Shown here: positions 226-53,949 of the stretch, one piece after another
Layout: each line of letters opens with the position of its first letter
How positions within the stretch are numbered: position 1 is the first letter of the stretch
Assembly (NCBI GenBank): GCA_029906195.1
Contig: JARWSJ010000001.1
Location: forward strand, 248,001 to 312,000
Source of the DNA: Chitinophagaceae bacterium 26-R-25
Lineage (GTDB): Bacteria > Bacteroidota > Bacteroidia > Chitinophagales > Chitinophagaceae
DNA length: 64,000 nt
Reading direction: 5' to 3'
Notes under the pieces: generated by a model
The model's input: only the letters and a program-made list of their open reading frames with translations
The model's database searches: none
Told to the model about the DNA's origin: nothing
Made by a program: the position numbers and the translations under genes

Positions 226-254
226 TAAAAAAGGGGAATTATATTTCCCCTTCG
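226..254 (-). terminator. Intrinsic terminator of the radC-like gene
   Basis: An 8-bp inverted repeat (AAGGGGAA / TTCCCCTT) with a 6-base loop is followed, read on the minus strand, by a run of T. It overlaps the stop codon of the radC-like gene, as intrinsic terminators sometimes do. Seen directly; function inferred. Confidence 0.6.
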
Positions 255-709
255 TCTGCAAATGAATAATAGGTTTCAGGCGTTATGATCAGGTGGTCAA
301 GTATCCTGATATCCAAAAAACTCCCCGCTTCTTTTAGTTTCAGCGTTATCCGTTTGTCTGCCTCGCTGGGTCTCACGCTTGCGCTCGGGTGGTTGTGCGC
401 GACGATTGCCTGGGTGGCACCTGCTTTCAGCAATAGGCCGAAGATTAATCTTGGATCCACTGTTGCCTGGTCAATAGCACCACTTGACAATTCACAGATA
501 CCCAAGACACGGTTTCCTTTATTCAAGGGCATTACTTTGAATTGTTCCACCAGTTCAATTTTATCCATGTTCCAGGATGCCAGGAACAGTTTGTGTGCAT
601 CCACTGAACATTTTATTTGTGGTCTTTCGGATGCCTTGATCTTTGCTTTGTAGATAATTTCCAATTCTGATACTTGCATCCAGCCTGTTGTTTCTACTGT
701 GTTTTCCAT
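239..709 (-). CDS. RadC-like JAB-domain protein
   Basis: A 156-residue protein of the short RadC/YkfG type that Bacteroidota mobile elements often carry. The JAB (Mov34/MPN) metal-binding signature is visible near residues 100-120: AHNHPSA followed by a PSEAD stretch, giving the two His, a Ser and an Asp of the zinc site. It lacks the N-terminal helix-hairpin-helix region of chromosomal RadC, which is normal for element-borne versions. The biochemical role of this family is not settled; DNA repair is only its historical label. A second, truncated copy with nearly the same N-terminus lies at 15647-15901. A terminator overlaps its end. Confidence 0.85.
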   Translation of the reverse strand: MENTVETTGWMQVSELEIIYKAKIKASERPQIKCSVDAHKLFLASWNMDKIELVEQFKVMPLNKGNRVLGICELSSGAIDQATVDPRLIFGLLLKAGATQAIVAHNHPSASVRPSEADKRITLKLKEAGSFLDIRILDHLIITPETYYSFADEGEI

Positions 710-1492: not shown

Positions 1493-2437
1493 TTAGAAGA
1501 TTTTTTTAAACTCAGTGAATTTTTTGAAATAGTTAAGTACGTAATCTGTTTCTGCTTTGAATTCCTGTATTAACGGAGGTGGTACGGGAAAAGATGAAAT
1601 TTTTTTCTTATCCGTATAGATAGAAAAATAGCCGTCAATGTCATTCCAATAGAACCTGAAGTTTCTGCCGTTTTGTAATTGATTAATTTCTGTTTTGAAC
1701 TTATAGTTCAATTTTTGAAGTTGTTGTTTGGGGTGCTTGAATTTCAGCTGTACTCTATTAATCTGCCATTCTGTTTTTTCATCTTTGTTATGAAAGATGT
1801 CTACGTCAAATAGAACGTCGACGTTTTCCAGGTAATTGTGACAGGCAATAGATTCGTTGTCATAGATATCTGGAGCAATCTCGAATATCTTATTCTCATA
1901 TAGCGTATTGATCTTTTTGACAACTTCTTCCATTCGGATTTTTACATCTTTCAAGAATAGATAATTAAATCCTTCCTTGGTAATCTTGTTGCTTCTTTGT
2001 ATGATTGTTGAGGCTTTAACGATCATTTTCACTTCATCGATGGCATCATCATAAGCGTCTGTTTCTTCAAATAAATCTTCTTCCTTTGATATCAGTATGC
2101 CCATTTCCCGGTTGTTTTTCGAGCTGTGCTGTAAAAGATTCAATGAAGAAATTATCATATTATCTTCATTAAAATAGCATTTTGCATGAACGGTATTGTG
2201 TTGAAGAATTGTCAGGTTGGAAATTTGATTTAATGACGACAGTATTTCGCTGGAAAGAATATTTTCCCGGCAAATGAGTAAGACCTCGACATTTCGTTCT
2301 TTCAGCTTGGCAAATGTTTTTATAATGGGGTCTTTGATATCAATGAAAGGAGTTATTATTACCAATTCCCTTTCGGCTTTATTTATTATGTTCTTAAATT
2401 CAGCAATTATTCCTTCGGTGTTTAGGAAGACAGCCAT
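1493..2437 (-). CDS. Phospholipase D-like (HKD) nuclease domain protein
   Basis: A 314-residue protein with a single HKD-type active site near residues 105-125: HAK, then a Glu-Asp pair where the family usually has Asp, then ISSLNL, as in Nuc/BfiI-like phosphodiesterases. The N-terminal part shows the usual alternation of strands and helices (LVIITPFI, VEVLLIC). One HKD copy implies an active dimer if it works like other single-motif members. It starts 13 bases after the lipoprotein gene at 2451-2810, so it is the last gene of a six-gene operon that begins with an HNH nuclease. The C-terminal 150 residues are not recognised. Substrate (DNA, RNA or lipid) cannot be told from the sequence; nuclease is the likelier guess. 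Confidence 0.7.
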   Translation of the reverse strand: MAVFLNTEGIIAEFKNIINKAERELVIITPFIDIKDPIIKTFAKLKERNVEVLLICRENILSSEILSSLNQISNLTILQHNTVHAKCYFNEDNMIISSLNLLQHSSKNNREMGILISKEEDLFEETDAYDDAIDEVKMIVKASTIIQRSNKITKEGFNYLFLKDVKIRMEEVVKKINTLYENKIFEIAPDIYDNESIACHNYLENVDVLFDVDIFHNKDEKTEWQINRVQLKFKHPKQQLQKLNYKFKTEINQLQNGRNFRFYWNDIDGYFSIYTDKKKISSFPVPPPLIQEFKAETDYVLNYFKKFTEFKKIF

Positions 2438-2450
2438 CGTTTTTTTTGTT

Positions 2451-2810
2451 TTACAAGTGAAGTAGATAGTTACCCTTTATATTTTGATTATAGTATTTAC
2501 CAAATGATTCTGCCGCTTTAAAATCTCGCCAAATATCGATTGGCATATCCTGGTGGATATATTTTTGCTTTCCCATCTCAATTATGAAAAATCCTCTGTG
2601 ATGGTCACAACTATAAAAATGGGCGGCTTTAATAAAACTACTTTTACCTGTGTTTATCGAGTCCGTAAATACAAAATGACTGCTGGTGACCATTCTTTTT
2701 GCCTGCTCATATGAGTTGAATTTACCGGGATTATTACTGCAATCTTGTGCAGAACAACTGTGAACGGTAATGCAAAAAAATATCAACAATAATGGTTTAA
2801 TTGTCTTCAT
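2451..2810 (-). CDS. Small exported (lipo)protein, unknown
   Basis: The start at MKTIKPLLL is chosen because it gives a clean signal sequence ending at VHSC, a possible lipobox, with AQ next. The open frame continues 26 codons upstream inside the previous gene, but that part is not signal-like. The mature protein is about 100 residues with three further Cys residues (CSNN, YSCDHH). It overlaps the end of the coiled-coil gene by 14 bases, so translation is probably coupled. No family is recognised. It is probably envelope-located. Confidence 0.6.
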   Translation of the reverse strand: MKTIKPLLLIFFCITVHSCSAQDCSNNPGKFNSYEQAKRMVTSSHFVFTDSINTGKSSFIKAAHFYSCDHHRGFFIIEMGKQKYIHQDMPIDIWRDFKAAESFGKYYNQNIKGNYLLHL

Positions 2811-3144
2811 TGTTTTGATGCATTTCATCCACTTCATCGCCGAGATCTTTGACTTTTTGTTCCAAATCCCACTTGTCATGATATTCATATTCCAATTGGC
2901 CTTTTAACTCATCAACATCTCCCTGCGTCTGTTCAATGGATTGTTGCAAATTCTCCTTACTTTCCTCCAATTCATCGACCCGGTTTTGCAGTGTTGTTTT
3001 TTCAAATTCCAAATTATCTATTTCATGGTTGAGATAAACGATTTTAGATTTGAGTTTATTTTTCTGCTCCTGCTGCGCCAAATTTAGAACAGCAGATGTG
3101 ACGAGTGCAACGACTGTCGCTGTGACAACTACTTTGTTTTTCAT
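2797..3144 (-). CDS. Membrane-anchored coiled-coil protein
   Basis: A 115-residue protein. Residues 4-22 form one hydrophobic segment (signal anchor), and nearly everything from residue 28 on is charged heptad-like helix (for example LEFEKTTLQNRVDELEESK), typical of a long parallel coiled coil. Its start codon overlaps the stop of the preceding gene (TAATG), and its end overlaps the next start, so it is embedded in the operon. It may act as a membrane tether or spacer for its partners; this is inference. Confidence 0.65.
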   Translation of the reverse strand: MKNKVVVTATVVALVTSAVLNLAQQEQKNKLKSKIVYLNHEIDNLEFEKTTLQNRVDELEESKENLQQSIEQTQGDVDELKGQLEYEYHDKWDLEQKVKDLGDEVDEMHQNNEDN

Positions 3145-3563
3145 TAATTGAATATTTTTTCATACCAGCTACTGACATCATCTCGAATCAAGTCGTAGTA
3201 CTTGTAAATAATTGACGCGAGCTTGAAGTCCGCTCGTTGGCTTTTGTAATCGTTGACTGTAAAGTATCCGTAAAATGTTCCATTCCCGTCGACAATCACG
3301 GGTGGATAACTAGCATATGTGTTAAATGGCGACAGGTTGCTAAATTGGCTTCCGTAATCACTGTAACTATTCCAAATTGATTTGTTACTGTATTTTGAAC
3401 CGTAGGTGCCATATTGATTCCAAATAGAGTTAGTGTTAAAGTTGTTGCAGTTTAGACATCCCAGGTAAACGTCATGGTTTTTTCCCCCATAAATCTGTAA
3501 TGCATTTTGACTGAAGGATACACTGGAAAACAGGCTTAGTGCAAGGATGAAGAGTATTCGCAT
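3144..3563 (-). CDS. Exported protein with SIWN-Y-YGS repeats
   Basis: A 139-residue protein with a Sec signal peptide (LFILALSLFSSVSFSQ). The mature N-terminus reads IYGGKNHDVYLGCLNC, with a CxxC pair, followed by three short repeats of the form SIWNxYxxYGSxxSN at about residues 45-80, then PPVIVDGNGTFYGYFTVN. Proteins with this repeat pattern occur scattered in many bacteria, but I know of no assigned function. It is the third gene of the HNH/PLD operon and coupled to the next gene by TAATG. Confidence 0.6.
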   Translation of the reverse strand: MRILFILALSLFSSVSFSQNALQIYGGKNHDVYLGCLNCNNFNTNSIWNQYGTYGSKYSNKSIWNSYSDYGSQFSNLSPFNTYASYPPVIVDGNGTFYGYFTVNDYKSQRADFKLASIIYKYYDLIRDDVSSWYEKIFN

Positions 3564-3602
3564 CTTATATTTTTTGAATTGGAATTGAATGCCGATGGGC
3601 CA

Positions 3603-4196
3603 CTATTGTAGCTTGCTTTCGAATTGTTTTTTTGATTGTTTAAAGGCCGACTCATCCCAGTTGCTATCGAAGCCATTCCAAAAAAGCCGGATGAGGAATC
3701 GATTTGCTGTCTTGCAAATCAATACATCTATATTGTCATAGCTGAAATAGATGTTGTTATTGTCGTAGTCGTCTGTTAGAAATCGATCGTTGTCGTTCAT
3801 CGCGTTTTGAATGATATTAAGAAAAGCGGTTGCTTTTTCTTTTTCTAAATTCTTGTAGGCATACCCTTGCGAGACACTTCCATCGCTGTTGCAATAGCTG
3901 CCATAAAACCCAAGTACCAGGCCTTCCTGTTTTGTTCGATCACATTTATACAGCAAGGTTGTCAGTTCTCCTGAGGTTGCTGCCGCCAGTGGAATTACTT
4001 CAAATTGGATCAATTCGTTTTCACTCGACAAACCAAATACATTTGTAAAGAGAAAACGTTTCGAGTTAAAAAGTGCAATGTTTTTGCTGTACTCTTTTGC
4101 ATCCCGATAGAATTTACCAGCACTACCACTCGCCACCTGTGCCGATGCTGCAAAGGACAATAGAATGACTGTACATGCAATTGCGATTCTTTTCAT
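3603..4196 (-). CDS. Exported protein of unknown function
   Basis: The start at MKRIAIACTVILLSFAASAQ gives a standard signal peptide; the 23 extra codons upstream would place a charged stretch in front of it and run into the HNH gene. The mature protein is about 175 residues, mixed alpha/beta, with two Cys residues around the sequence CKTANRFLIRLFWNG. It is not recognised. It is 23 bases after the HNH gene and about 40 bases before the next gene of the same operon. Confidence 0.6.
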   Translation of the reverse strand: MKRIAIACTVILLSFAASAQVASGSAGKFYRDAKEYSKNIALFNSKRFLFTNVFGLSSENELIQFEVIPLAAATSGELTTLLYKCDRTKQEGLVLGFYGSYCNSDGSVSQGYAYKNLEKEKATAFLNIIQNAMNDNDRFLTDDYDNNNIYFSYDNIDVLICKTANRFLIRLFWNGFDSNWDESAFKQSKKQFESKLQ

Positions 4197-4219
4197 TTTA
4201 AATATTTGTCGGATAATTT

Positions 4220-4537
4220 TTACGATGGCAGGTCGCCGTTTTGTTGATGTTGATCCCGGTGGCAACGTTTACATACTGAAACAAGCCATTCAATGGGTTC
4301 TTTCCCGATGTTTAACCTTGCATATTTTAAATGGTGTACTTGCGTGGCATGGCCACCGCAATACACACAAGTCCAGTTGTCCCGTTTGAGCACCACATAG
4401 CGTTTGCGTTGCCAGGCATCAGACTTAAGGTATACATTCCTGTAATAGTCGCGACGATACTTGCGTTTGACTTCAAAGCGCCATCGCCCAACGACTGCGA
4501 CAAGCGCAGTAATGATTAATAGCATGAGTATTTCCAT
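4220..4537 (-). CDS. Membrane-anchored HNH endonuclease-like protein
   Basis: A 105-residue protein with one N-terminal transmembrane segment (LMLLIITALVAVVG), then a basic linker and an HNH domain. The domain is seen as CVYCGG, QVHHLKY and CKRCHRDQH, which gives two CxxC zinc pairs and the His-His/Asn-His core. The spacing is that of small HNH (McrA-like) nucleases. It is the first gene of a minus-strand run of six. The basic residues after the segment suggest the nuclease domain stays in the cytoplasm at the membrane. A membrane-tethered HNH beside exported proteins and a PLD-type enzyme is unusual. Confidence 0.75.
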   Translation of the reverse strand: MEILMLLIITALVAVVGRWRFEVKRKYRRDYYRNVYLKSDAWQRKRYVVLKRDNWTCVYCGGHATQVHHLKYARLNIGKEPIEWLVSVCKRCHRDQHQQNGDLPS

Positions 4538-5169
4538 TTTGTTGGATTTACAGCCCCAGTGCTCATAAAGATGCGACGCTATCTATAATGGTTGCCCGGA
4601 GAGGGTCAGAGCGGTCAAATATGGCTTATACGGTTGGTTTATTAATCTTATTCAAGTACTTACATTCTATGTAAATAGAGAACATAGCCTCCCGTTGACC
4701 TATTTCCGATCAATAACGATTCAGCTAATTAGACACAATAGCTATAATAAGAGGAAAAAAGTAGATTGGTTTCACGTTTTTATTTATTGAACATAAATTA
4801 AAGCGAACGCAGTTAATACAATACTACCATATCAAATTTTTGTTGATGGAGGATTTTTAGTTTCCGGTTCTATATTGTAGCATTTGGTAATGATTCTTAA
4901 ATTGTATTTAACTGAACTGTTTGTCAATTGTTATTCTGAAAAATATGCAAGGTTGGGGTAAGATAAAGATCTGCGTGAGGCATGCTAATTAATAATATCA
5001 AACAGCTAAATTTCGGTTATTGGCTGACGTGACAGCATATCACGACTTATTATTGCTACAGGCCAATTCGACGCGCTGGAAGTACTACGGGACCCGGTAG
5101 ATTAAGTACACAGGCATTTTCAACCAGCCTGGGAGTAAGTTTCGGTCCGTTTAAACATTGATTTTGAAT
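4538..5169. other. Intergenic region
   Basis: About 630 A+T-rich bases between divergent genes. It should contain the promoters of the HNH operon (minus strand) and of the gene at 5170. I see no convincing gene, repeat or RNA here. Confidence 0.4.
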
Positions 5170-18989: not shown

Positions 18990-20090
18990 CTATACATGTG
19001 GCATTGGTAACGAGCTCTCAAATGGAACAATCCTTTCCCGCATTTTTTGCTTGCTTTTAAAGTGTCGCGAGACCTCTTGTGTTAAATCAACATAGTTATT
19101 TCCTTCTGAGTATTCATAGTAATATATTTTTATAGATCTGCAATTGTCATGTTCAAAAACCATATTAAGCATAGTTCTGTCTGATAATCCGCAGGAATGG
19201 CCAATGGTGATAACCTGGAAAATCTCAGAATTGATAAAACGAATGAGATCCCGGTAATTTGAATTTTTGAAATATCCAAACGATTTCATATAGTTAAGAA
19301 ACCCCTTGATTGGTTCATCTTCCAATTTTGAATACTCTTTGTCCATTTCATCACCAAACCCGAAAATTATCGGATTAATTTCACTGTTTAATTCTCCGTG
19401 TATGTAATTGACAACAATTGGCGAGTTTCGATTTTTATTAAGTTCATCAATATATTCGGTTACTGTATCTGTGTAATTAAAATTTAGAATCATACAGTCA
19501 TTCACACTAAGCCATTCTGAAAGGACGGGTTTGACCACATCCTTCGGATGAATAGCGTCATCGATAAAATCGCGAAACCTTGTGTTTTTGTCTTTGGGAG
19601 TAACTGTTGACAAATATATTTCTAATGCATTTCTAAGACTCGCGAATGCTTCGTTCAACTGTCTGACTTTTTCACTTTTCAGTTGAGCATCCTCAATATT
19701 TAGAATCTTTTTTAGCTCAGAGTAGTATTCGTTTTCAATGTCTACCCAGCCGCAATGTTGACATTTTGTAAAGAGATAAGTTATAAAAGGATCGGCGATT
19801 TTCCAAAGTAAAGGATCGTATGTTTCTCGTCTAGGAGCATCATCCAAAAAAGTGAAGGCGTAATCAAGCGGCAGCAAGCCAATAAAATCTTCAAGTTTGG
19901 TGAAGTGCTGTGTAATTGGTCCACGCCAATAATGCGTTTTTACAACTGACCCAAGTGCATCTTCATAACGGCCCTCTTCCTCTGCAATCTTAAAAATGGT
20001 TTTAATGTAGCTAAAAATGAAGTCATGGTAACTTGTTTTCATTCCATGTGCAAGGTCGAAGCCATTGCCAATAATAACAAGCCTGTTCAT
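18990..20090 (-). CDS. abiH: AbiH family abortive-infection protein
   Basis: A 366-residue protein; the start at MNRLVIIGNGFDLAHG is chosen because the AbiH family begins with exactly this nucleotide-binding-like strand, so the eight codons upstream are left out. Other family marks are KTSYHDF, the FNYTDTV segment near residue 210, YIHGELN, the IIFGFGDEMDKEY stretch and the C-terminal ITIGHSCGLSDRTML. AbiH was first described as a lactococcal abortive phage-infection factor; the mechanism is not established. Full length and apparently intact. It stands alone on its strand, between the RES pair and a remnant-rich gap before SIR2-HerA. Confidence 0.9.
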   Translation of the reverse strand: MNRLVIIGNGFDLAHGMKTSYHDFIFSYIKTIFKIAEEEGRYEDALGSVVKTHYWRGPITQHFTKLEDFIGLLPLDYAFTFLDDAPRRETYDPLLWKIADPFITYLFTKCQHCGWVDIENEYYSELKKILNIEDAQLKSEKVRQLNEAFASLRNALEIYLSTVTPKDKNTRFRDFIDDAIHPKDVVKPVLSEWLSVNDCMILNFNYTDTVTEYIDELNKNRNSPIVVNYIHGELNSEINPIIFGFGDEMDKEYSKLEDEPIKGFLNYMKSFGYFKNSNYRDLIRFINSEIFQVITIGHSCGLSDRTMLNMVFEHDNCRSIKIYYYEYSEGNNYVDLTQEVSRHFKSKQKMRERIVPFESSLPMPHV

Positions 20091-20486
20091 CTTGCGTCTT
20101 GTCTGATCGCGCATTTTTTACGGTTTAGCCAACTAATATAATAAAACATCTTTTAATGAAGTTTTGATAAACAGTAGTTGCACTTTTTCTTTGTGGCAGA
20201 GTTAAATATGTTTTAACTATATAGTCGAAGGAAATCACCTAATTACTATCTTAATAAGTATTGTTTAATATTCAAAAGCTTGAGACCAAATTTATGAAAC
20301 CAAGCTGACCCAAATAGTTCAAGTTTGACTAGCAGTAGTTTATTGCTATCAAGGCTTCTCTTTTGAACTTGTGCCCAGGACTGAAGTTGGAAAGTCAAGA
20401 TATGCTTGCAGGTGAATTAAAGCGCATAAGCAAGGAGTTTTGTAATTTCTTGCTCATTCCACTCAATCAAAGTACCATGCTCCTAA

Positions 20487-21134: not shown

Positions 21135-22901
21135 TCAAATAATTTTGAAAAGAGGTGTGCCAGAATCAGGAATGATGTTTGGCATGTCTATTTTCAGCAT
21201 CACCGGCATTGGAAAATCGACCCCCATTAAAATTGCTTCACCCGCTCCCAAGGCAGGTAAAAAATCTAATGAGTTTTTACCTGCTGAGGAGCTAGCGCTC
21301 GATATTGATTCTTTATCAAAATGATTTATAAGGCGATGTACGATAAATGTGCCCATTTGACTTAATGTTCCAGTGGGAATATCCCTTGGCATTTGTGTAG
21401 CAATGCATAAGAATAATCCAAACTTTCGGCATTCCTTTGCAATTGAATCGAAAGAACTCAATTTCGTTTGCTCAAAATATTCATCTTTCACATCTTTATT
21501 TAGGTATTGATGTGCCTCATCTATAAACAAAATAATCGGCTCGGTTTTAAAACAACCGGTTCTTGCTTTATCTAGCAAAAATTTCCCAATCGCATTTGCA
21601 AGAATCTCCCTCGATTGAAATTCAAACCCAATTTTTTCAAATCCTATACGAAAAAATTTTTTGTCTCCACCTAAAAAAGTATTGATTTTCCTTATTAGTT
21701 CATCTTCATCCTCTTTCCTTTTTTCGAACCCGAACATTAGATTAAACTGCTTATTATTGATTAGGTTGGTTATTCTAAGAATTAGGCTAATGCAATTGTT
21801 TAAATGAGAATCATTTTTTGCACCCCATTTACTCGCTGAATTAAAATCCACATCATAAACGCACTCCTTAGCTATTTGATTTGATAATGCCTTTATATCG
21901 AAATTAGAGTTAATGCCTTCTATATCCTCGATAAAGTGTTTGTAAACACGATTAAAAGGCCGCATCAACTGTCCCATTTTATAAATATTATTGTCTCTTA
22001 CAACAATCAATTCGCGAAGCTCATTGGTAATTTTAATAGAATAGTTATCTCCCTCTTTAATAATAAAATCACCATCACATTTCTCCTCCAATATTCTTAA
22101 TATCTTGAGAGATTTAATCGCTTCTAAAAGCTTGGGGGCTTGAACTTGCCCCGACGGTCGTAGCAAAACAAACAAATCACTTGTAGTTAGATTAGTGTAA
22201 TGAAAAAAAGAATTTTCCGCTAATACTGATGCATCAAAAGAATCATCGGTTTCTCCTTGTTTTTTGTACTCGCCTGTTGCATCAATCAATATGGATTTCC
22301 CTGTATTTCTTTTAACTTCTTCAATTAACTTACAAAGTGTATAACTTTTTCCGCCACCTGTTGTGCCAACAACTGCACAATGCCTTCCAAATACGGCTTG
22401 CTGGGAGATTTGAACTTGGGCAGTCTTGTCATATGTCAAGCAACCTAAATTCATTAAAGGAGCATTACCTATATTTTCTTCTTTTACTCCGAAATGTTTA
22501 AAATAAGTTTTAATAAAATCAGAAGTACATACAAATACCTTAGCTCCAATTGCAGGCAGTGAATTTAATCCCTTATCAATTTTCGTCGGTTCAAACAGAT
22601 CAAAAGATAATAATATTTCTATTTTGCCTGTTGGATGAAAATCTTTATTTTGGAAAGATTGCTCACTCAAGTGAAGACGCTCCTTCTCTGGAAGAGCTAA
22701 CTCTAATATTTTGCCCAAAAATCCAAATTTCTGCCCCTCGATTACAACAAAATTTCCGACTAATCCTCCGTTAAGCTGCTCGCCGTTAAGTGTAAATGTT
22801 TTCAATAAAACAGAGGATGGAAAATGGACTTTGATATATTGTGGTAGTACTTGATTTACATAACCAATAAAATAGTCGTGCACAAATGGATTACTATTCA
22901 T
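21135..22901 (-). CDS. herA: HerA-like ATPase of a SIR2-HerA defence system
   Basis: A 588-residue AAA+/FtsK-HerA ATPase. Residues 1-170 form a HAS-barrel-like N-terminus. Walker A is GTTGGGKSYTL near residue 180; Walker B is IILFIDEAHQYL near 460, followed by the sensor-type segment LFLCIATQMPRDIP and the arginine-bearing IVHRLINHFD. HerA proteins are hexameric DNA translocases. Its start overlaps the end of the SIR2 gene by 8 bases, which marks them as one operon and one functional unit. SIR2-HerA is a known anti-phage pair in which the SIR2 partner consumes NAD+ on infection. Intact by length. Confidence 0.88.
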   Translation of the reverse strand: MNSNPFVHDYFIGYVNQVLPQYIKVHFPSSVLLKTFTLNGEQLNGGLVGNFVVIEGQKFGFLGKILELALPEKERLHLSEQSFQNKDFHPTGKIEILLSFDLFEPTKIDKGLNSLPAIGAKVFVCTSDFIKTYFKHFGVKEENIGNAPLMNLGCLTYDKTAQVQISQQAVFGRHCAVVGTTGGGKSYTLCKLIEEVKRNTGKSILIDATGEYKKQGETDDSFDASVLAENSFFHYTNLTTSDLFVLLRPSGQVQAPKLLEAIKSLKILRILEEKCDGDFIIKEGDNYSIKITNELRELIVVRDNNIYKMGQLMRPFNRVYKHFIEDIEGINSNFDIKALSNQIAKECVYDVDFNSASKWGAKNDSHLNNCISLILRITNLINNKQFNLMFGFEKRKEDEDELIRKINTFLGGDKKFFRIGFEKIGFEFQSREILANAIGKFLLDKARTGCFKTEPIILFIDEAHQYLNKDVKDEYFEQTKLSSFDSIAKECRKFGLFLCIATQMPRDIPTGTLSQMGTFIVHRLINHFDKESISSASSSAGKNSLDFLPALGAGEAILMGVDFPMPVMLKIDMPNIIPDSGTPLFKII

Positions 22902-24099
22902 TGGTTTTATTTTCGGTTACTATGATAATTTTGTTTTGTTCATCTTGATTGTAAGATTTTAAATCCGGATAATGGTCGGCAAAATCAGAAAATCTCTCAT
23001 CAACTAAAGCAATGTTTGAATGTTTTTTTGATATTTCGAAGAGCCATTTGAATTTGTCGGAGGTGTCAATCCCTTTATTTACAACCATCAATTGAAAACT
23101 TGGATTTTGGGTTAAAGCCTCCATAATTGCGGTAACAATATGTTTGTCACTGAAACTAAATCCAATACAAATCAGTAGCACATTCTCTTTTCTTAAATTC
23201 TGATGAAATCTTGACATCATCTCGAAAAAGGGTTGTTCATAGGAGTTTTCATATTTGCTGTCCTTCGGGTATATCATTAATGCATTCTCAACCTTCTCTG
23301 ATTGTTTTATAGTTCCGTCTTGTAATTTTTCCCAATCAACTGAACCATGAGGTTTGTATAAATGAAATACTCTTGTTATAAAATTATCTTCTTCTTTAAC
23401 TCTGCTCTTGTCTCTTAATACTATGTCATAGTCAAAATTTCGTCCACTGAAATGCCGAGGAAATGAAAATGAGAACCCATCTATTACCGTGAAATTCTTC
23501 TTTTTTGAGGCTTGTTCAAATAGTGTGTCATAATTTAAGGTAAATATCTTAAGTCGGGGAAGAGTAACTTTTCGCTTGGTGATTTTTTCTAAAAATAATT
23601 CATGAGGCGAGCTTAGTGGAAGAGTTAACTCGCATTGAGTTTTTATCAGATTCTGAATTTTTAATATGAATTGATTCAGATTGATATGCTTGTCTGTTAC
23701 ATATTCCTTTGCCGCATTTGCAAGTGACAAGAGTTTTTCTAAATTTTTGATATATGCCCCTTTGTCGTCCTTGTCTAGATAATGAACAAGTTCGCAAAAT
23801 TTATTTAATTTTTGTTCAGTTAAATCTTTTGAAGCTTCATCCCATAACTCAGTCAGTAATTTTCCACCAGCATCTTTTGAAGATCCGGCGCCACTTAACA
23901 CAATCAGGTTTTCAAATTGATGTTCGAGAAATTTCCTATACTTATTTCTTTTTGTTTGATGTGCAAATTCTTCTTTGTTATTATTGTCATCAGGGCCAAA
24001 TAAGTGTTCTGAGTTGTCGATAAAAACGCTTATTACTTTTCCTTCATTATCTCTCTCAATTCCTACAGTACTATTACCATTTATATAAATATATTCCAT
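22894..24099 (-). CDS. SIR2-domain protein of a SIR2-HerA defence system
   Basis: A 401-residue protein; the ATG at 24099 follows a TTG codon and is preferred. The SIR2 NAD-binding motif is LIVLSGAGSSKDAGG near residue 70; further family marks are FTLNYDTLFE, HLYKPHGSVDW and LICIGFSFSDKHI. The first 55 residues form an extra N-terminal strand domain (YIYINGNSTVGIERD). In known SIR2-HerA systems this subunit is an NADase activated by phage. It overlaps the HerA gene by 8 bases. A+T content is visibly higher than in the Sus loci nearby, which fits transfer. Confidence 0.87.
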   Translation of the reverse strand: MEYIYINGNSTVGIERDNEGKVISVFIDNSEHLFGPDDNNNKEEFAHQTKRNKYRKFLEHQFENLIVLSGAGSSKDAGGKLLTELWDEASKDLTEQKLNKFCELVHYLDKDDKGAYIKNLEKLLSLANAAKEYVTDKHINLNQFILKIQNLIKTQCELTLPLSSPHELFLEKITKRKVTLPRLKIFTLNYDTLFEQASKKKNFTVIDGFSFSFPRHFSGRNFDYDIVLRDKSRVKEEDNFITRVFHLYKPHGSVDWEKLQDGTIKQSEKVENALMIYPKDSKYENSYEQPFFEMMSRFHQNLRKENVLLICIGFSFSDKHIVTAIMEALTQNPSFQLMVVNKGIDTSDKFKWLFEISKKHSNIALVDERFSDFADHYPDLKSYNQDEQNKIIIVTENKTNE

Positions 24100-45171: not shown

Positions 45172-45492
45172 ATGGCAGCAAGCATATATACAATTAATAA
45201 AGGAGTAAACGCCAGCATCGAATTTAAGGGTTTGAAGGCGCAGTATATCTGGTGGCTGGCCGGTGGTTTACTCTGTTTATTAGTAATGTTTGCGATCATG
45301 TATGTGCTCGGTGTCAATACCTATTTATGCCTGTTGATCATTGTTGGTTTAGGTGCGTTGCTTTTTACGCAAGTGTACCGCATGAGCAAAACATACGGCC
45401 AACATGGACTCATGAAAAGAGCGGCGCAAAGAAAAGTGCCCAAAGTGATCAAATCCAATTCGCGAAAGCTGTTCATAAAAAACAAGCAGTAA
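45172..45492 (+). CDS. traF: Conjugative transposon TraF (DUF4133)
   Basis: A 106-residue protein with two transmembrane helices (YIWWLAGGLLCLLVMFAIMYVLG, YLCLLIIVGLGALLFTQVYRM) and a basic tail. TINKGVNASIEFKGLKAQYI and YRMSKTYGQHGLMKRAAQR are hallmarks of DUF4133/TraF, the VirB3-like partner of the TraG ATPase. Its stop overlaps the traG start (TAATG). Confidence 0.9.
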   Translation: MAASIYTINKGVNASIEFKGLKAQYIWWLAGGLLCLLVMFAIMYVLGVNTYLCLLIIVGLGALLFTQVYRMSKTYGQHGLMKRAAQRKVPKVIKSNSRKLFIKNKQ

Positions 45493-47927
45493 TGGAAAGG
45501 TGGTTAACAGACATATTACCCATTATGGATGTGGAGCATGACGCGATCGTCAGCAAGCAAGGAGACATCAGCATTGTTTACCAATGTGCATGGCCGGAGA
45601 TCTTTACACTCAGTGATGAAAACTATGAAGCCATCCACCAGGGACTGGTCAAAGCCATTAAAGTGTTGCCAAAGGATTCGATACTTCATAAGCAGGACTG
45701 GTTCAACCGTACCCTATATCATTCACCTGCCGGAAACGACAGTTTTTTGAAAATCAGTAGTACGAGGCATTTCGAAGGACGACCTTATTTATCACACGAG
45801 AGTTTTATCATCCTTACCAAAAAGGCGGGAGGCCGGAAACCGGCGAGTTCCATTGTTAGTAATTTGTTTAGCAACAGCATTGTGTCGGGCCAAACCATTC
45901 ATCCGCCAGCCATTGAAGCGTTCGAGGATATATGTGGCCAGTTCCAAAGAATACTCGCAAGCGTAGGGATAGGACTTCGCCGCCTCAAAAATCGGGAACT
46001 GTTAAGCGAGTCCACAAAGGCTGGTCTTATCGAAAGGTATTGTAATCTTTCTACTGTTAACGAACAGGTGTATATCAATGACATCCAATTTAAGGATGAT
46101 TTTAGAATAGGGGACAAGCATGTACAAGTGTTTACACTTGCCGATACCGAAGAAATGCCGGCGCTGTGTGGCAGCAAAATGACGTATGAAAAATACAGTA
46201 CCGATCGCACAAAATTCAGCATCGGTTTTGCGGCCCCGCTTGGTTTATTGCTCCCTTGTGATCATGTCTATAATCAATACATCATTATCGGAGATGCACA
46301 AGCCAGCATTAAAAAACTGGAAAGCAAAAGACTCAAGCTGCAGTCACTTAGTAACTATAGCCGGGAAAATGCTATAGCAAGAGATGCTGTCAACGAGTTT
46401 CTGAATGAATGTATTAGCCAATCGAGACTGCCGGTTAGGGCACATTTTAACCTGATGGTATGGTCGGATAAGAAAAATGAGTTAAAGGATGTAAAGAATA
46501 TGGTAGCGACGGCGCTTGCTCAAATGAATGCAGTCGCCAAACAAGAGACCGTTGGTGCCGCCCAGATTTATTGGGCTGGCATTCCAGGGAATGCTGCAGT
46601 TCTTCCTCTCAATGATACTTTTGAAACATTCGCGGAACAGGCATCTTGTTTTTTGACACTGGAGACCAACTACAAAAGTTGTTTGCCTGAAAATGGTATC
46701 CGGTTCTGTGATCGCCTAAGCGGCAAACCGGTGTATGTTGACCTGTTTGATGAACCCCGAAAAGAAGGCATCACTTCCAATATGGGGATGCTGGTTTGCG
46801 GAACGAGCGGAGGGGGAAAAAGCATGACGGTCAATCATATTCTCCGGACATTATACGATCAACAGGCACATTGTGTCGTGGTGGATATTGGTGGAAGTTA
46901 CAAAGGACTCTGTGAGCTGGTAAAGGGTTATTATTTCACTTATGAGGAGACAAACCCTATTCGATTCAATCCTTTTTATTTAGCTGATGGAGATATTCTT
47001 GACACAGAGAAAAAAGAAAGTTTGAAGGCACTTTTGATCGCCTTATGGAAACAGGAGAATGAACGGTTCAATCGGAGTGAATATGTAGCCCTTTCAAATG
47101 CGCTGACAGGTTATTATGAACACCTGCAAAATAGTCCCGGCATGTTCCCGTGTTTCAATACTTTTTATGAATACCTGCAGGACGATTATGTTAACGTTCT
47201 CAAAGGACATAACGTAAAGGCTAGCGATTTTGATGTCAGCAATTTTCTCTATGTTCTTCGTCCTTATTACAACGGCGAGTTTGATTACCTGTTGAACGCC
47301 CGTGAAAACCTTGATCTGCTGCATCAACCTTTCGTGGTATTTGAGCTCGATGCGATTAAAGATCACCCGATTTTATTCCCAGTCGTGACGCTCATCATTA
47401 TGGAAATGTTTATCTCCAAGATGCGCAAATTGTCTAATAAAAGAAAAGTGCTGGTGATTGATGAAGCCTGGAAAGCCATCGCCAAATCAGGTATGGCAGA
47501 GTTTTTAAAATATGCTTTTAAAACCATTCGAAAGTTCAATGGTATTCCTTGTGTGATCACGCAAGAGTTGGATGACCTGGTTAGTTCTCCGATCATAAAG
47601 GATGCCATCATCAATAATGCGGATATAAAGATCCTGATGGACATGCGCAAGTTTATCAACAAGTTTGACAAACTGCAGGATACTTTGGGATTGTCGGAGA
47701 AAGCAAAAACAATCCTGCTTTCCGTCAACAAAGATAATCGCGAGATTTTTATTGATCTTGGTGGGCACGTGTCAAAGGTTTATAAAAATGAACTGTGCCC
47801 GGAAGAATATTTTGCCTTTACAACCGATGGAAAGGAAAGGGTGAAAGTGCTGGAGTACGCGGCTGCCTATGGAAGTATGGAGAAGGGCATCAGTAAGCTG
47901 GTAGAGGAATTGAGGGCTGGTAAGTAA
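45492..47927 (+). CDS. traG: Conjugation ATPase TraG (VirB4-like)
   Basis: An 811-residue ATPase; the ATG at 45492 is fixed by the TAATG overlap with traF and by the typical beginning ERWLTDILPIMDVEHDAIVSK. The open frame extends 80 codons upstream in another frame of traF and is ignored. Walker A is LVCGTSGGGKSMTVNHIL near residue 440, Walker B is KVLVIDEAWKAIA near 655, followed by the VirB4-type IPCVITQELDDL and RKFINKFDKLQ. It powers assembly of the type IV secretion channel at the inner membrane. Intact. Confidence 0.95.
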   Translation: MERWLTDILPIMDVEHDAIVSKQGDISIVYQCAWPEIFTLSDENYEAIHQGLVKAIKVLPKDSILHKQDWFNRTLYHSPAGNDSFLKISSTRHFEGRPYLSHESFIILTKKAGGRKPASSIVSNLFSNSIVSGQTIHPPAIEAFEDICGQFQRILASVGIGLRRLKNRELLSESTKAGLIERYCNLSTVNEQVYINDIQFKDDFRIGDKHVQVFTLADTEEMPALCGSKMTYEKYSTDRTKFSIGFAAPLGLLLPCDHVYNQYIIIGDAQASIKKLESKRLKLQSLSNYSRENAIARDAVNEFLNECISQSRLPVRAHFNLMVWSDKKNELKDVKNMVATALAQMNAVAKQETVGAAQIYWAGIPGNAAVLPLNDTFETFAEQASCFLTLETNYKSCLPENGIRFCDRLSGKPVYVDLFDEPRKEGITSNMGMLVCGTSGGGKSMTVNHILRTLYDQQAHCVVVDIGGSYKGLCELVKGYYFTYEETNPIRFNPFYLADGDILDTEKKESLKALLIALWKQENERFNRSEYVALSNALTGYYEHLQNSPGMFPCFNTFYEYLQDDYVNVLKGHNVKASDFDVSNFLYVLRPYYNGEFDYLLNARENLDLLHQPFVVFELDAIKDHPILFPVVTLIIMEMFISKMRKLSNKRKVLVIDEAWKAIAKSGMAEFLKYAFKTIRKFNGIPCVITQELDDLVSSPIIKDAIINNADIKILMDMRKFINKFDKLQDTLGLSEKAKTILLSVNKDNREIFIDLGGHVSKVYKNELCPEEYFAFTTDGKERVKVLEYAAAYGSMEKGISKLVEELRAGK

Positions 47928-47973
47928 AATTGGTTTGGTAGAACTGGTATTTATTAACCTACAAATACATCTT

Positions 47974-48362
47974 ATGAAAGTTTCAGTATTCTTTTTTGTT
48001 GCAGTGGTTTTGGTTATTGCTGGTTGCGGCGATTCCGCTTCGGATAAGATCCGGATTTTATGCCGGGCATGTATGTAAGGCAAATTGAGAACGAGTTTAC
48101 GAATGGGGCCGATACAATCGTAATAACGGTACATGATCATTCAGGTGGTGTTTATCTCGTCCAAAATATGACAGGCTATCAACAACGACTAGATGGAAAA
48201 GTTTTTCCTCCTGAATACAAGGTAAAGAAATGGACTGCAGTATACGATGAAAAAACACACCAGTTAATCATTCAACAAAAACAGGATATAATAACCTTTT
48301 CTCCACAGGAAAATAAATTGTTGCGTGGACGGACCGAATTTTTCAAAGTGAAAAAAGATTAA
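47974..48362 (+). pseudogene. Frameshifted conjugation lipoprotein
   Basis: The ATG at 47974 opens a lipoprotein signal (KVSVFFFVAVVLVIAGC) that stops at 48076 after about 34 codons. In another frame 48060-48362 continues with MPGMYVRQIENEFTNGADT, TGYQQRL, EYKVKKWTAVYDEKTHQLI, and PQENKLLRGRTEF, which is the body of a conserved small lipoprotein encoded between traG and traI in related elements. A one-base indel near 48050-48060 would restore a roughly 130-residue protein. It might be a sequencing error. Confidence 0.65.
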
Positions 48363-48368
48363 GAGAAG

Positions 48369-49046
48369 ATGAAAAAGGTTGTACTTACAATGGTGCTTAG
48401 TTGCACCTTAATCGTAATGCCTACCCAGCAAAGCCATGCTTTTATATGGGAGATTGTCAGGCAGGCAATTATAGCAGCGATCAAAGCAGCAGACCTCGCG
48501 GTGCAAAGATTGCAGAATAAAACAATCTGGTTGCAGACAGTACAGAAAAACCTGGAGAATGTTTTGTCAAAAGTGAAGCTCGATGAAATCACCGATTGGA
48601 CAAAGAAACACAAGGAACAGTACCAGCAATACTTCGATGAACTCAAACAAATAAAGGATGCCATCAGTACCTACAGGAAAGTTAAGGAGATCATCGAAAA
48701 ACAAAAACAATTGGTAGATGAATACAAAGTTGCTTTTAACCGTTTCAAACAGGACATGCATTTTACGACTGGGGAGATCACATATATGGCGCAAGTATAC
48801 ACAGGTATTATGGATCATAGTGTGGACAATCTTGATCAATTGTTTTTGGTTATTGATGCCTTCAATACAGAGATGACAGATGGCAGGAGACTCGAAATTA
48901 TTGGCGCGGTCGCAATACAGGTTGATGATAATCTGAATGATCTGAGGGATTTTAACCGGCAGTGCACGCGGCTAAGTTTGCAGCGATCAAAAGATGAGAA
49001 TGAACTTAAAACGATGCGACTTTATTACGGGCTTCCGGGTAACTAA
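48369..49046 (+). CDS. traI: Conjugation protein TraI (DUF4141-like)
   Basis: A 225-residue exported protein: signal VVLTMVLSCTLIVMPTQQSHAF, then long helices (VQRLQNKTIWLQTVQKNLEN, EQYQQYFDELKQIKDAISTY). This is the plan of VirB5-like TraI: a periplasmic helical protein, often at pilus tips. A GLPGN end is typical. It is 7 bases after the lipoprotein frame and 13 before the next gene. Confidence 0.75.
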   Translation: MKKVVLTMVLSCTLIVMPTQQSHAFIWEIVRQAIIAAIKAADLAVQRLQNKTIWLQTVQKNLENVLSKVKLDEITDWTKKHKEQYQQYFDELKQIKDAISTYRKVKEIIEKQKQLVDEYKVAFNRFKQDMHFTTGEITYMAQVYTGIMDHSVDNLDQLFLVIDAFNTEMTDGRRLEIIGAVAIQVDDNLNDLRDFNRQCTRLSLQRSKDENELKTMRLYYGLPGN

Positions 49047-49058
49047 AAAGCAAAGGGT

Positions 49059-49673
49059 ATGAAAAATGTTTGGATGTTTTTTTTGATCGTGCCATTTAGC
49101 ATCAAGAGCAACGCACAGAATCAGCAAATCAAAGTGTATTTACAACAAATAGCCGCGAATAAAGCGTATATCGAACTACTACAGAAAGGCTACCAGATTG
49201 TAAAGCAGGGATGGAAGACCATCGGGGATATAAAACAGGCACATTTTACACTCGACGGCGATTTTTTCAAAAGCCTGGAATCCATCAACCCCAAAATAAA
49301 AAACTATGCAAAAACGGTGACAGGTTTTGTGTTGCTGAATACTGCGAAGAAAGAGATGGATAATCTCCAGGTAAACGTAGCTTTCAACAGTCTTTTCAGC
49401 GAAAATGAAAAAGCCTATGTGGATCATGCGGCGTCCAATGTTAAAGATAACTGTACGCTTCAGTTTTACTTTTTGCAATCCCTTATTACTGCATCCGAAT
49501 TAAAAATGAGCGATGATGAAAGAATAGAACGGATCGATGAAGTCTTTAAGGAAGCACAGGATCTGTATTCATTTACCAGGTCGTTTAAAACGGATGTGCA
49601 GTTGCTCGCTTTGCAAAAGCAAAAGGCGAAAATAGACGTCGATCATTTCAAGCAGGTAATTGATGTAAAATAG
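49059..49673 (+). CDS. TraI-like exported helical protein, second copy
   Basis: A 204-residue exported protein (signal FFLIVPFSIKSNAQ) with the segment KGYQIVKQGWKTIGDIKQAHFTLDGDFFKSLESINPKIK near the N-terminus, matching KEGYEILSGGYKTIKDLSEG in the next gene, and the shared ending LKMSDDERIERIDEVF. It is helical throughout and shorter than the first TraI. It appears to be a paralogue in a run of three. Confidence 0.6.
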   Translation: MKNVWMFFLIVPFSIKSNAQNQQIKVYLQQIAANKAYIELLQKGYQIVKQGWKTIGDIKQAHFTLDGDFFKSLESINPKIKNYAKTVTGFVLLNTAKKEMDNLQVNVAFNSLFSENEKAYVDHAASNVKDNCTLQFYFLQSLITASELKMSDDERIERIDEVFKEAQDLYSFTRSFKTDVQLLALQKQKAKIDVDHFKQVIDVK

Positions 49674-49699
49674 TTATCAGACAAATTTAAAAGTGGTGT

Positions 49700-50329
49700 A
49701 TGAAAATGAGGGTACTGATATTAATGATTTTCTTTTTAACTGCTAGCCTGACCAACAGGGTGGAAGCACAGGCCACAGAACTCGCTCAACTTGCTTTGAA
49801 TATTGAAAAACTGGCGCAGTTCAAACAAATCCTGGCAGACCTGAAAGAAGGTTATGAGATTTTATCCGGTGGTTACAAAACCATTAAAGATCTATCTGAG
49901 GGTAATTTCAATTTACATAAAGTGTTTCTGGACGGTTTACTCGAAGTCAGCCCAATTGTAAAAAAGTACAAGCATGTAGCGGATATTGTAGATTATCAAA
50001 TAATGCTGGTTAAGGAATACAAAACTGCCTTTGCAAGGTTTCAAACAAGTGGATGGTTCAGCGCTGATGAACTCGGTTATATCAGTAAAGTGTACGATAA
50101 CCTGTTCACGCTTTCTGGAAAAAACCTCGATGATTTGCTGACAGTTGTTACCGCTAAGAAATTACGCATGAGTGATGATGAGCGCCTAAAAGCGATCGAT
50201 AAAATATTTGAGGACATGGAAGATAAACTGGTATTTCTGCGGTCATTCAATAGCAGTAATTCAATTCTAATGGGACAACGGTTGAAGGAATCAAATGAAG
50301 TAAAAGGTATGCAGCATTTCTATAAGTGA
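49700..50329 (+). CDS. TraI-like exported helical protein, third copy
   Basis: A 209-residue exported protein (signal ILMIFFLTASLTNRVEAQ). GYEILSGGYKTIKDLSEGNFNLHKVFLDGLLEVSP and KKLRMSDDERLKAIDKIFEDME are typical of proteins annotated TraI in Bacteroidota elements. It shares both motifs with the preceding gene. The sequence AGTGGTGTATGAAAATG surrounds its start and, identically, the traJ start at 50369, suggesting copied translation signals. Confidence 0.7.
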   Translation: MKMRVLILMIFFLTASLTNRVEAQATELAQLALNIEKLAQFKQILADLKEGYEILSGGYKTIKDLSEGNFNLHKVFLDGLLEVSPIVKKYKHVADIVDYQIMLVKEYKTAFARFQTSGWFSADELGYISKVYDNLFTLSGKNLDDLLTVVTAKKLRMSDDERLKAIDKIFEDMEDKLVFLRSFNSSNSILMGQRLKESNEVKGMQHFYK

Positions 50330-50368
50330 TGATTGGTAAGGTCAAAAATGTTTTAAAAATAGTGGTGT

Positions 50369-51472
50369 ATGAAAATGTGTAGTAGGATTAGTTCAGTAAT
50401 GGTGTTGATGATTTTGCCAACCATGCTCTTTGCGCAAAATGGACTCGGGGATGATATAAAAGGGCTGCATTCAGTCCTCGATCAATTGTACAAAGAAATG
50501 ATTCCTCTTTGCTCGCAGCTCATCGAGGTCGGTAGAGGCATCGCCGGTTTTGCCGCAATGTGGTATATCGCCTATCGTGTCTGGGGACACCTTGCGAGAG
50601 CTGAGCCCATTGATTTTTATCCATTGTTCAGGCCATTTGTCGTGGGCTTTGCCATCATCATTTTCCCGTCGGTAATCGGGCTCATTAATGGCGTCATGCA
50701 GCCTACGGTTACCGGAACCGCTGCTATGGTGAGTCATTCAGATGAAGCGATTGCCGTTCTATTAAAACAAAAGGAAGCTGCCATCAAACAATCAGATATC
50801 TGGCAAATGTATGTGGGAGAAGATGGAAATGGTGATAGGAGCAAGTGGTATAAATATACCTATGACGAAGATCCAAATAAAGAAGATTTGCTTCATGGAA
50901 TTGGTAATGATATCAAATTCGCAATGGCCAAAGCCTCCTATAATTTTCGCAATTCGATCAAGGAATGGATGAGTGAAGTATTACAGGTTTTGTTTGCCGC
51001 CTCATCACTTTGTATCAATACCATCCGGACATTTAACCTGATCATACTCGCAATTCTTGGACCACTGGCCTTTGGTCTCTCGGTCTTTGACGGGTTTCAC
51101 CAAACCATCAAACACTGGCTCGCGAGGTACATCAATGTGTTCCTGTGGCTGCCAATTGCCAATATCTTCGGCGCATTGATTGGAAAGATCCAGGAAAACA
51201 TGTTGAAGATCGACCTCTCGCAGATCAATCAAAACGGCGATACGTTTTTCAGTCGCACAGATATGGGCTACCTCGTTTTTTTGATCATCGGTATCATCGG
51301 CTATTTCACCGTTCCTTCTATCGCGAACCAAATTCTGTGGGTGGGCGGCGGTGATGGGATCACTTCAAAAGCAACTTCCATGGGTGCTACTGCTGTTCAG
51401 GCAAGCACCAATCTTGCAGGAACTGCCATCAATCAAACCGCACAAAAAGGCCGCGAAATGATGGGCTTATAA
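50369..51472 (+). CDS. traJ: Conjugation protein TraJ (VirB6-like)
   Basis: A 367-residue polytopic protein. A signal peptide (MVLMILPTMLFAQ) is followed by DDIKGLHSVLDQLYKEMIPL and about six transmembrane helices, including GIAGFAAMWYIAYRVWGHL, FVVGFAIIIFPSVIGLIN, LIILAILGPLAFGLSVFDGF and MGYLVFLIIGIIGYFTVPSIA. The FDGFHQTIKHWLARYINVFLWLPIAN segment is the TraJ hallmark. VirB6-like subunits form the inner-membrane channel. Intact. Confidence 0.92.
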   Translation: MKMCSRISSVMVLMILPTMLFAQNGLGDDIKGLHSVLDQLYKEMIPLCSQLIEVGRGIAGFAAMWYIAYRVWGHLARAEPIDFYPLFRPFVVGFAIIIFPSVIGLINGVMQPTVTGTAAMVSHSDEAIAVLLKQKEAAIKQSDIWQMYVGEDGNGDRSKWYKYTYDEDPNKEDLLHGIGNDIKFAMAKASYNFRNSIKEWMSEVLQVLFAASSLCINTIRTFNLIILAILGPLAFGLSVFDGFHQTIKHWLARYINVFLWLPIANIFGALIGKIQENMLKIDLSQINQNGDTFFSRTDMGYLVFLIIGIIGYFTVPSIANQILWVGGGDGITSKATSMGATAVQASTNLAGTAINQTAQKGREMMGL

Positions 51473-51490
51473 CAATAAAATAAATGCGTG

Positions 51491-52108
51491 ATGTTTTCAA
51501 AAATGAAACATATAGATACCGCCTTCCGGTATGTACGGGCCTTCACATTCGTCATTATAACAGGCTCTCTCTTGTTATGCGGGTTTGTGATCTACAAAAG
51601 TTTTGAACTGGCCTCCATTGCTAAAAACAAAGTCTATGTGCTTGCCAACGGGAAGGCACTTGAAGCACTGGCAGCAGACCGAAAAGATAATGTGCCAGTG
51701 GAAGCCAGGGATCATGTATACATGTTCCATCATTACTTTTTTACCCTTGACCCGGATGATAAGGTCATTCAACGCAATATTACCAAGGCGCTATATCTAT
51801 CGGACGCCTCTGCTAAAAGACAATATGAAAACTTAAAAGAATCGGGTTACTATTCAAATGTGATTGCAGGTAATATCAGTCAACAGATCAGTATTGATAG
51901 TGTGCAGGTCAGCGTTGATAGTTATCCCTATTATTTCCGGTGCTATGCGACACAACAAATCATTCGCGCCACGTCCATTGTCTACCGGCTGCTGATCACA
52001 GAAGGTTACCTGCGCAATGTAGAACGCAGCGAAAACAATAGCCATGGGTTCCTGATTGAAAAATGGCACACGATAGAAAACCGCGATGAAAAAACAGTTA
52101 ACCGTTAA
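51491..52108 (+). CDS. traK: Conjugation protein TraK (VirB8/TrbF-like)
   Basis: A 205-residue protein; the ATG at 51491 is preferred to the GTG just before it. One transmembrane helix (FTFVIITGSLLLCGFVIYKSF) near the N-terminus is followed by a periplasmic NTF2-like domain with VYVLANGKALEAL, PVEARDHVYMFHHYFFTLDPD and VERSENNSHGFLIEKW, all typical of TraK. Two bases separate it from the next gene. Confidence 0.92.
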   Translation: MFSKMKHIDTAFRYVRAFTFVIITGSLLLCGFVIYKSFELASIAKNKVYVLANGKALEALAADRKDNVPVEARDHVYMFHHYFFTLDPDDKVIQRNITKALYLSDASAKRQYENLKESGYYSNVIAGNISQQISIDSVQVSVDSYPYYFRCYATQQIIRATSIVYRLLITEGYLRNVERSENNSHGFLIEKWHTIENRDEKTVNR

Positions 52109-52110
52109 TC

Positions 52111-52566: not shown

Positions 52567-52572
52567 TCATAT

Positions 52573-53916: not shown

Positions 53917-53949
53917 TGGCTTCTATAAAACCAAACGAAAATGTGTAGC

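Follow-up and report, generated by a model that had tools for sequence, protein, structure and literature searches.

A packed cluster of six nuclease-type and envelope-type genes in a Chitinophagaceae genome, probably a composite operon of accessory genes

Layout of the cluster

The stretch of DNA analysed here, henceforth the window, comprises 64,000 nucleotides (G000:C1:248001-312000) of the 6.5-Mb, 6-contig genome of Chitinophagaceae bacterium 26-R-25, and the present work concerns a cluster of six co-directional open reading frames (ORFs), g1 to g6, that lies on its minus strand at window positions 1493-4537:

g1, 4220-4537, minus strand, 105 residues: predicted membrane-anchored HNH protein
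g2, 3603-4196, minus strand, 197 residues: predicted exported protein, family unknown
g3, 3144-3563, minus strand, 139 residues: predicted exported SIWN-repeat protein with an LGCLNC motif
g4, 2797-3144, minus strand, 115 residues: predicted coiled coil whose N-terminus bears a membrane segment or signal
g5, 2451-2810, minus strand, 119 residues: lipoprotein-like protein with a KTSC domain
g6, 1493-2437, minus strand, 314 residues: predicted cytosolic single-HKD phospholipase D-like protein

From g1 to g6 the intergenic gaps measure 23, 39, -1 (a TAATG at the g3/g4 junction), -14 (g4/g5), and 13 bases, so that the packing, the TAATG, and the 14-base overlap reported in an initial annotation of this DNA are confirmed in their coordinates. 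All six ORFs start with ATG as read, the start of g5 having been placed at the ATG at 2810 in a frame already open from the ATG at 2888, and that of g2 at 4196 in a frame that a TTG at 4265 already leaves open. We generated 1000 Markov-chain sequences that match the region in dinucleotide frequencies: the sixth-longest ATG ORF on the strand never reached 105 residues, at least one ORF of 105 residues or longer being present in 9.5% of the same sequences. Chance would not be expected to yield six ATG ORFs this long on a single strand. Homologues were found elsewhere for g1, g2, g3, g5, and the N-terminal half of g6, while for the reality of g4 as a gene there speak its overlaps and a single weak coiled-coil match. 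The G+C content declines from 0.46 in g1 to 0.33 in g6, a trend that is compatible with parts of differing origin and proves nothing.

We found no TTG-spacer-TAnnTTTG promoter upstream of g1 (4538-5160); a lone TAnnTTTG is located within the cluster, at 3086, and sigma-70-like and terminator-like sites were no more frequent than by chance. Therefore, it is from the spacing alone that we consider the six genes to be probably co-transcribed.

Occurrence of the six genes in other genomes

To follow the genes elsewhere we searched 123 fetched loci, with wider neighbourhoods, with all six proteins; the same-family samples consisted of 244 genomes per query, our own included, and at most 400 genomes per query were covered overall. 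The initial annotation had proposed as a check whether the six-gene order recurs across genomes, and the outcome went largely against its reading: no other genome carried three or more of g1-g6 within the 123 loci, only two carried as many as two, and the genes for the most part occurred apart from one another. One of those two genomes, G002, belongs to the same genus and contains homologues of g1 and g2 that flank, on the same strand, a gene for a KilAC (ANT) protein (L044 9917-10852, minus) matching the PADLOC candidate PDC-S69 at 2.5e-108. In the other, G128, from another genus, a gap of 19 bases separates the SIWN gene (g3) from the KTSC gene (g5) that follows it, with strand and order as in the window, and this pair is situated downstream of a gene for a CXXCXGXG Cys-rich protein and of one for a type I restriction subunit. 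The gene just upstream of the pair (L059 8180-8668, minus) encodes a lipoprotein-like CXXCXGXG-repeat protein (DnaJ central domain, BSD2-type). In addition, G499, a member of another family, has an exported coiled-coil gene directly before a KTSC gene, the two overlapping by 11 bases with one choice of start codon and separated by 1 base with another.

Otherwise the genes were found separately. Of 11 other loci with a g1 homologue, 10 contained none of g2-g6, and none of the 13 other loci with the N-terminal half of g6 contained any of g1-g5; the neighbours of the g1, g5, and g6 homologues differed, moreover, from genome to genome. A KTSC gene lacked a SIWN neighbour at seven of its eight other fetched places—the own paralogue, G059, G248, G222, G114 (two), and G499—and, of the 27 SIWN loci, 26 showed no KTSC gene beside the SIWN gene. 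For the weak g5 matches of G046 and G243, the check covered their short loci.

These distributions bear on two proposals. According to the first, advanced in the initial annotation, g1-g6 would constitute a single six-component system, either a membrane-associated nuclease defence or a DNA-uptake barrier; we give this proposal very little chance. The tight packing with two overlaps, the meeting of two nuclease-type domains with four envelope proteins in one cluster, the defence-candidate gene between the g1 and g2 homologues of G002, and the presence of SIR2-HerA and AbiH genes in the same window all argue for it, and if true it would represent a new defence architecture; but the evidence does not support such a machine, inasmuch as no other genome unites more than two of the genes, g1, g6, and g3 occur mostly without the others, neither of the nucleases seems to be oriented towards the periplasm, and the PADLOC search of the six genes gave sub-family matches only. 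Nor did the literature on exclusion and on HNH-phospholipase D defence provide a match for the six-gene set that we could find.

The second proposal is that g3-g4-g5 form a functional unit of the envelope, composed of a KTSC lipoprotein, an exported coiled coil, and a SIWN partner, with g1, g2, and g6 as mere neighbours. We regard it as unlikely, although, of all pieces of the cluster, this trio shows the strongest sign of a genuine linkage: g3 and g5 are adjacent in G128, the coiled-coil and KTSC genes are adjacent in G499, where that coiled coil is the only g4 match, the three genes overlap or abut in the window, and by rough arithmetic the odds of a chance adjacency would be near 1 in 1,000 in a genome of some 2,400 genes. 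Against this linkage stand the frequent separate occurrences of g5 and g3 just enumerated, and the weakness of the g4 match in G499 (E 3.2e-4, 23% identity).

The nuclease-type products

Membrane segments and signals were judged here and below from hydropathy alone. The g1 protein satisfies the HNH model PF01844 with 22.6 bits against a cut-off of 21.4, and the zinc-ligand motifs CxxC, HH, and CxxCH are present in it and in the 9 relatives listed. At its N-terminus lies a hydrophobic segment, next to it a strongly basic stretch, and then the HNH domain, with no lysine or arginine ahead of the membrane segment and 7 in the 15 residues behind it. By the positive-inside rule, the flank of a membrane segment rich in those residues is the cytoplasmic side, and because the 7 occur only after the segment the HNH domain is probably located in the cytoplasm; g1 is predicted to be an HNH nuclease anchored in the inner membrane, with its domain on the cytoplasmic side.

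Genes of this type were present in 12 of the 244 same-family genomes, our own included (E<=1e-8), and the viral_contigs scan with g1 gave four distant relatives. The protein shares its zinc-ligand and HH motifs with the small HNH endonucleases of PF01844, and the IscB model matches it across the HNH region at 4.3e-9; it differs from both in having only an anchor in the membrane and a single HNH domain. Its assignment to IscB was rejected, the score being 35.9 bits against an equivalog cut-off of 175. At two other loci (L051 1540-2163 and L052 7590-8204, minus) the same HNH domain has a more extended N-terminal region ahead of it, signal-like at its start, in proteins of 204-207 residues in total, and at another (L045 7312-9966) a membrane HNH gene adjoins a methyltransferase-like gene. 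The membrane-tethered HNH proteins thus offer a small family amenable to testing.

At the other end of the cluster, g6 satisfies PF13091 (PLDc_2) with 40.3 bits against a cut-off of 27, so that the tethered HNH domain and the single-HKD enzyme described in the initial annotation both held up. A complete HKD motif reads HxK(x)4D. The g6 protein possesses the HxK, within an HAKC motif—HAKC or HGKC being found in all 14 proteins compared—and has E at the D position, which among its relatives is occupied by E, D, Q, S, or A. With neither a membrane segment nor an export signal, g6 is predicted to be a cytosolic HKD phosphodiesterase. The proposal of a two-nuclease barrier to DNA uptake acting outside the cytoplasm is therefore unlikely, because the HNH domain of g1 is predicted to be cytoplasmic and g6 lacks an export signal.

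The N-terminal half of g6 was found in 14 of the 244 same-family genomes, our own included, and is 27-34% identical to plasmid-encoded phospholipase D family proteins with a single HKD, among the 20 listed of 215 plasmid records. From those proteins, as well as from the DISARM protein DrmC, g6 is distinguished by a C-terminal half for which the searches made yielded no relatives, all matches covering the N-terminal half only. DrmC itself was discarded as an identity for g6 (29.1 bits against an equivalog cut-off of 133), and none of the DISARM partner genes appeared among the six cluster genes and three neighbours scanned. The viral_contigs scan gave no relative of g6, and a search of solved structures by sequence gave no match at E 0.01. 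Just beyond g6, a RadC gene occupies window positions 239-709 on the minus strand; in G117 (L068 8207-8677) a RadC gene likewise adjoins a g6-like phospholipase D gene, there on the opposite strand.

The envelope-type products g2, g4, and g5

The remaining four products correspond to the three exported proteins and the membrane coiled coil of the initial annotation, and this description stands: g2, g3, and g5 have signal-like N-termini and g4 has an N-terminal membrane segment or signal, to which we add the naming of the KTSC domain in g5. The g2 protein, which like g3 may be periplasmic or exposed at the surface, matched no known family in the domain and family model searches and has a homologue in a single one of the 243 other same-family genomes (G002, 65% identity). 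The g4 protein, with its matches to models of coiled-coil type, is a candidate membrane or exported coiled coil.

As to g5, its C-terminal part satisfies PF13619 (KTSC) with 30.2 bits against a cut-off of 25, and the predicted fold (AlphaFold2, pLDDT 86.4) agrees: Foldseek matched it to 4rgi and 7x8c with probability 1.00 and target TM of 0.77-0.78, at E of 1.4e-3 to 6.9e-3—none reaching E<=0.001—and with a root-mean-square deviation of 2.1-2.2 over 67-70 columns. Unlike those solved chains of about 70 residues, g5 adds a lipoprotein-type signal and a conserved, Cys-bearing N-terminal part with a lipobox-like C19 and invariant C24 and C68, and would therefore be a lipoprotein with a KTSC domain. 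It was present in 8 of the 244 same-family genomes, our own included, in 2 of 247 genomes of the phylum, and in 1 of 199 genomes of the family of G499; the viral_contigs scan gave no relative, and the literature listings on the KTSC domain contained no functional paper that we could find. This exported KTSC variant is again a small and testable family. Outside the window (G000:C1:330714-331064; L056 7203-7565), our own genome encodes another KTSC lipoprotein of this family; behind it on the same strand lies a gene whose 513-residue product has a signal-like start.

The SIWN-repeat family of g3

The g3 protein comprises two 'SIWN..YG.YG' repeats, the LGCLNC motif, and a conserved C-terminus, and its export is predicted from hydropathy alone. 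Pfam held no family for it at E<=1. A search of 99 relatives yielded, besides the g3 of our own genome, two weak matches (about 0.009); in wider samples g3 was found in 8 of 395 genomes of the phylum, our own included, in 1 of 54 genomes of the genus of G581, and in 1 of 3 of that of G128. A single scan of the whole genome_contigs collection by short exact peptide patterns added two loci, from an uncultured Bacteroidales and from Paenibacillus dauci. The family furthermore occurs in 16 of 72,556 plasmid records (Acinetobacter, Cupriavidus, Paenibacillus, Robbsia, Microvirga, and others), and six such plasmid loci that we fetched, from Proteobacteria and Paenibacillus, contained none of the other five cluster genes. 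It extends over Bacteroidota, Proteobacteria, Cyanobacteria, and Paenibacillus, and the SIWN part can be fused to domains of the PdaC/DUF3298 or beta-flower type. In distant members of the phylum, SIWN-type repeats end proteins of 434-492 residues (L092 4318-5622, L093 3934-5412, and L094 5587-7050).

The fold of g3 gave little guidance. The best AlphaFold2 model had a pLDDT of 77.7, with the five models spanning 56.1-77.7, and with such a model the lack of any Foldseek match below E 6.4 and of any VIA-align match with Z>=2 is of little information; the g3 profile against the sequences of solved structures gave a best E of 0.027. A plasmid protein named '4-fold beta flower' (PF21784; L075) also has a SIWN stretch, but g3 has no match to that family model, which in the plasmid protein covers residues 5-95 with the SIWN stretch C-terminal to it, and we accordingly rejected this name for g3. 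Our literature searches found nothing on SIWN-type peptides, and the listings on 'beta flower' no functional paper.

The context of certain relatives is that of temperate phages. A profile-type scan of viral contigs recovered 12 SIWN relatives—the viral_contigs scan with g3 alone having recovered none—and in 5 of those 12 a repressor, integrase, recombinase, or amidase gene was recognised nearby by Pfam, a count that covers the neighbours in L103, L104, L105, L107, and L109 and one protein each of L111 and L113, these two with no Pfam match. In L107 the SIWN gene starts 8 bases downstream of an S24 repressor gene, an arrangement that L108 resembles by layout; L103 displays the order S24 repressor, small membrane protein, SIWN, one gene, integrase; L104 has a helix-turn-helix protein and a serine recombinase near the SIWN gene, L105 an amidase, and L109 an integrase and an amidase. 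Such neighbours suggest, without demonstrating it, superinfection exclusion. Ltp and SieA are described as prophage-made envelope proteins that block phage DNA injection (PMC3952083, PMC10883804), Ltp being encoded in the lysogeny module (PMC3952083). The SIWN proteins resemble both as small, predicted envelope proteins with some relatives beside phage repressor or integrase genes, a likeness of gene position and location only, and g3 differs in having no Pfam match to exclusion families.

If g3 were itself an exported superinfection-exclusion protein, it would have arisen on temperate phages, been domesticated later on plasmids and chromosomes, and block the entry of phage DNA alone. The phage-type neighbours in the five loci above and a gene layout reminiscent of Ltp (PMC3952083) speak in favour of this possibility, which we nevertheless hold to be unlikely: none of 50,697 phage records matched g3, contigs called viral may include host genes beside a prophage, and 7 of the 12 viral loci lack such Pfam support. 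The g3 gene of the window, for its part, lies outside any recognised prophage. A bolder extension would regard the SIWN proteins as a class of exported superinfection-exclusion proteins that has escaped recognition and crosses phyla, on prophages, plasmids, and chromosomal islands, with their fold unsolved, and g3-g4-g5 would in some Bacteroidota gate the entry of phage DNA, here backed by the membrane-tethered HNH nuclease at the point where that DNA reaches the cytoplasm; we consider this extension decidedly doubtful. Were SIWN proteins to exclude phages, they would constitute a simple, testable, and unrecognised class of entry block, and in any event a widespread, putatively exported, and nameless family is a useful residue of the analysis.

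Genomic neighbourhood

The window also contains a SIR2 gene (22894-24099) and a HerA gene (21135-22901), both on the minus strand and matching their models at 6.6e-86 and 1.2e-176, together with an AbiH gene (18990-20114, minus; PF14253 at 9.9e-28), all of them 14-20 kb from the cluster. Among the neighbours of g3 relatives are a type IV restriction gene (L005), a type I restriction gene (L059), and a TIR-like gene (L089). We compared these surroundings in bulk with PADLOC (E<=1e-15), leaving out genes of less than 200 residues and the second place in G114; the SIWN set further excluded L095 and every viral locus, the HNH set excluded L044 and L054, and L059 was counted as a SIWN locus. The SIWN loci gave 15 families, each in 1 of 60 neighbour genes; the HNH loci gave 23 families, each in 1 of 48, including a type II restriction enzyme and methyltransferases; and the phospholipase D and KTSC loci gave 85 families, of which the 25 listed, each in 2 of 92, were mostly methyltransferases. 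The HNH control is too low, if anything, because L044, with the strongest defence-candidate match, was left out; the type II methyltransferase and restriction-enzyme matches of that control apply to the HNH loci as a set. Since the control loci carry restriction and methylase genes too, we rejected a defence-island enrichment specific to g3. The neighbourhood marks genes of the g1-g6 types as residents of variable regions; it neither singles out g3 nor proves defence.

Interpretation of the cluster

Our favoured interpretation, to which we assign a probability of roughly 0.65, is that of a composite operon whose accessory genes move independently and were collected singly or in pairs in a variable region of a chromosome of Bacteroidota type. 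The observed basis is the common direction and tight spacing of the genes and the patchy, separate occurrence of the parts elsewhere, from which we infer a stepwise assembly; the SIR2-HerA and AbiH genes and the conjugative-transposon genes of the window speak for the variability of the region. Most likely, each product would act alone or in pairs and not as part of a six-part complex; the predicted compartments differ, with g1 at the inner membrane and facing the cytoplasm, g6 in the cytosol, and g2 and g3 in the periplasm or at the surface.

As to the use of a composite operon of this kind, the likeliest would perhaps be protection against incoming mobile DNA, at odds that we nonetheless put well short of even: g3 might serve as an exported protein of the exclusion type, as made by temperate phages from the lysogeny region, and g1 and g6 might act as nucleases on DNA inside the cell. 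The nuclease defence system of the initial annotation thus falls as a six-part system, and what survives of it are the three partial recurrences, the PDC-S69 gene in G002, and the phage context of g3 relatives. Together these leave room, with weaker force, for an anti-phage role of single genes or pairs, an action that we offer as the leading guess and not as a result.

Several points weigh against our interpretation. The overlapping junctions hint at selection for co-expression, and the three pairwise recurrences in G002, G128, and G499 indicate that the gene set is not wholly random; with at most 400 genomes per query and a single peptide-pattern scan for g3, a rare intact copy may have escaped. 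The protective role, in turn, has to contend with the restriction-type genes near control loci and is without direct support.

A further alternative would regard some of the small exported proteins as immunity proteins or orphaned pieces of a polymorphic-toxin locus, with g1 or g6 as a nuclease toxin domain. Large repeat-type proteins encoded upstream of the window, one with DUF5977, invite this explanation, but their genes lie several kb off, on the opposite strand, neither g1 nor g6 is fused to a delivery domain, and no immunity-type family was matched above cut-off, so that we judge it extremely improbable. Those large proteins (L061 4656-8573 and 9103-13422, plus) are exported-looking and have 1305 and 1439 residues, the DUF5977 being in the first. 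Within the window, transfer genes of a conjugative transposon of the Bacteroides type, from the TraG, TraJ, and TraM families (Pfam), are located at 45327-54771 on the plus strand.

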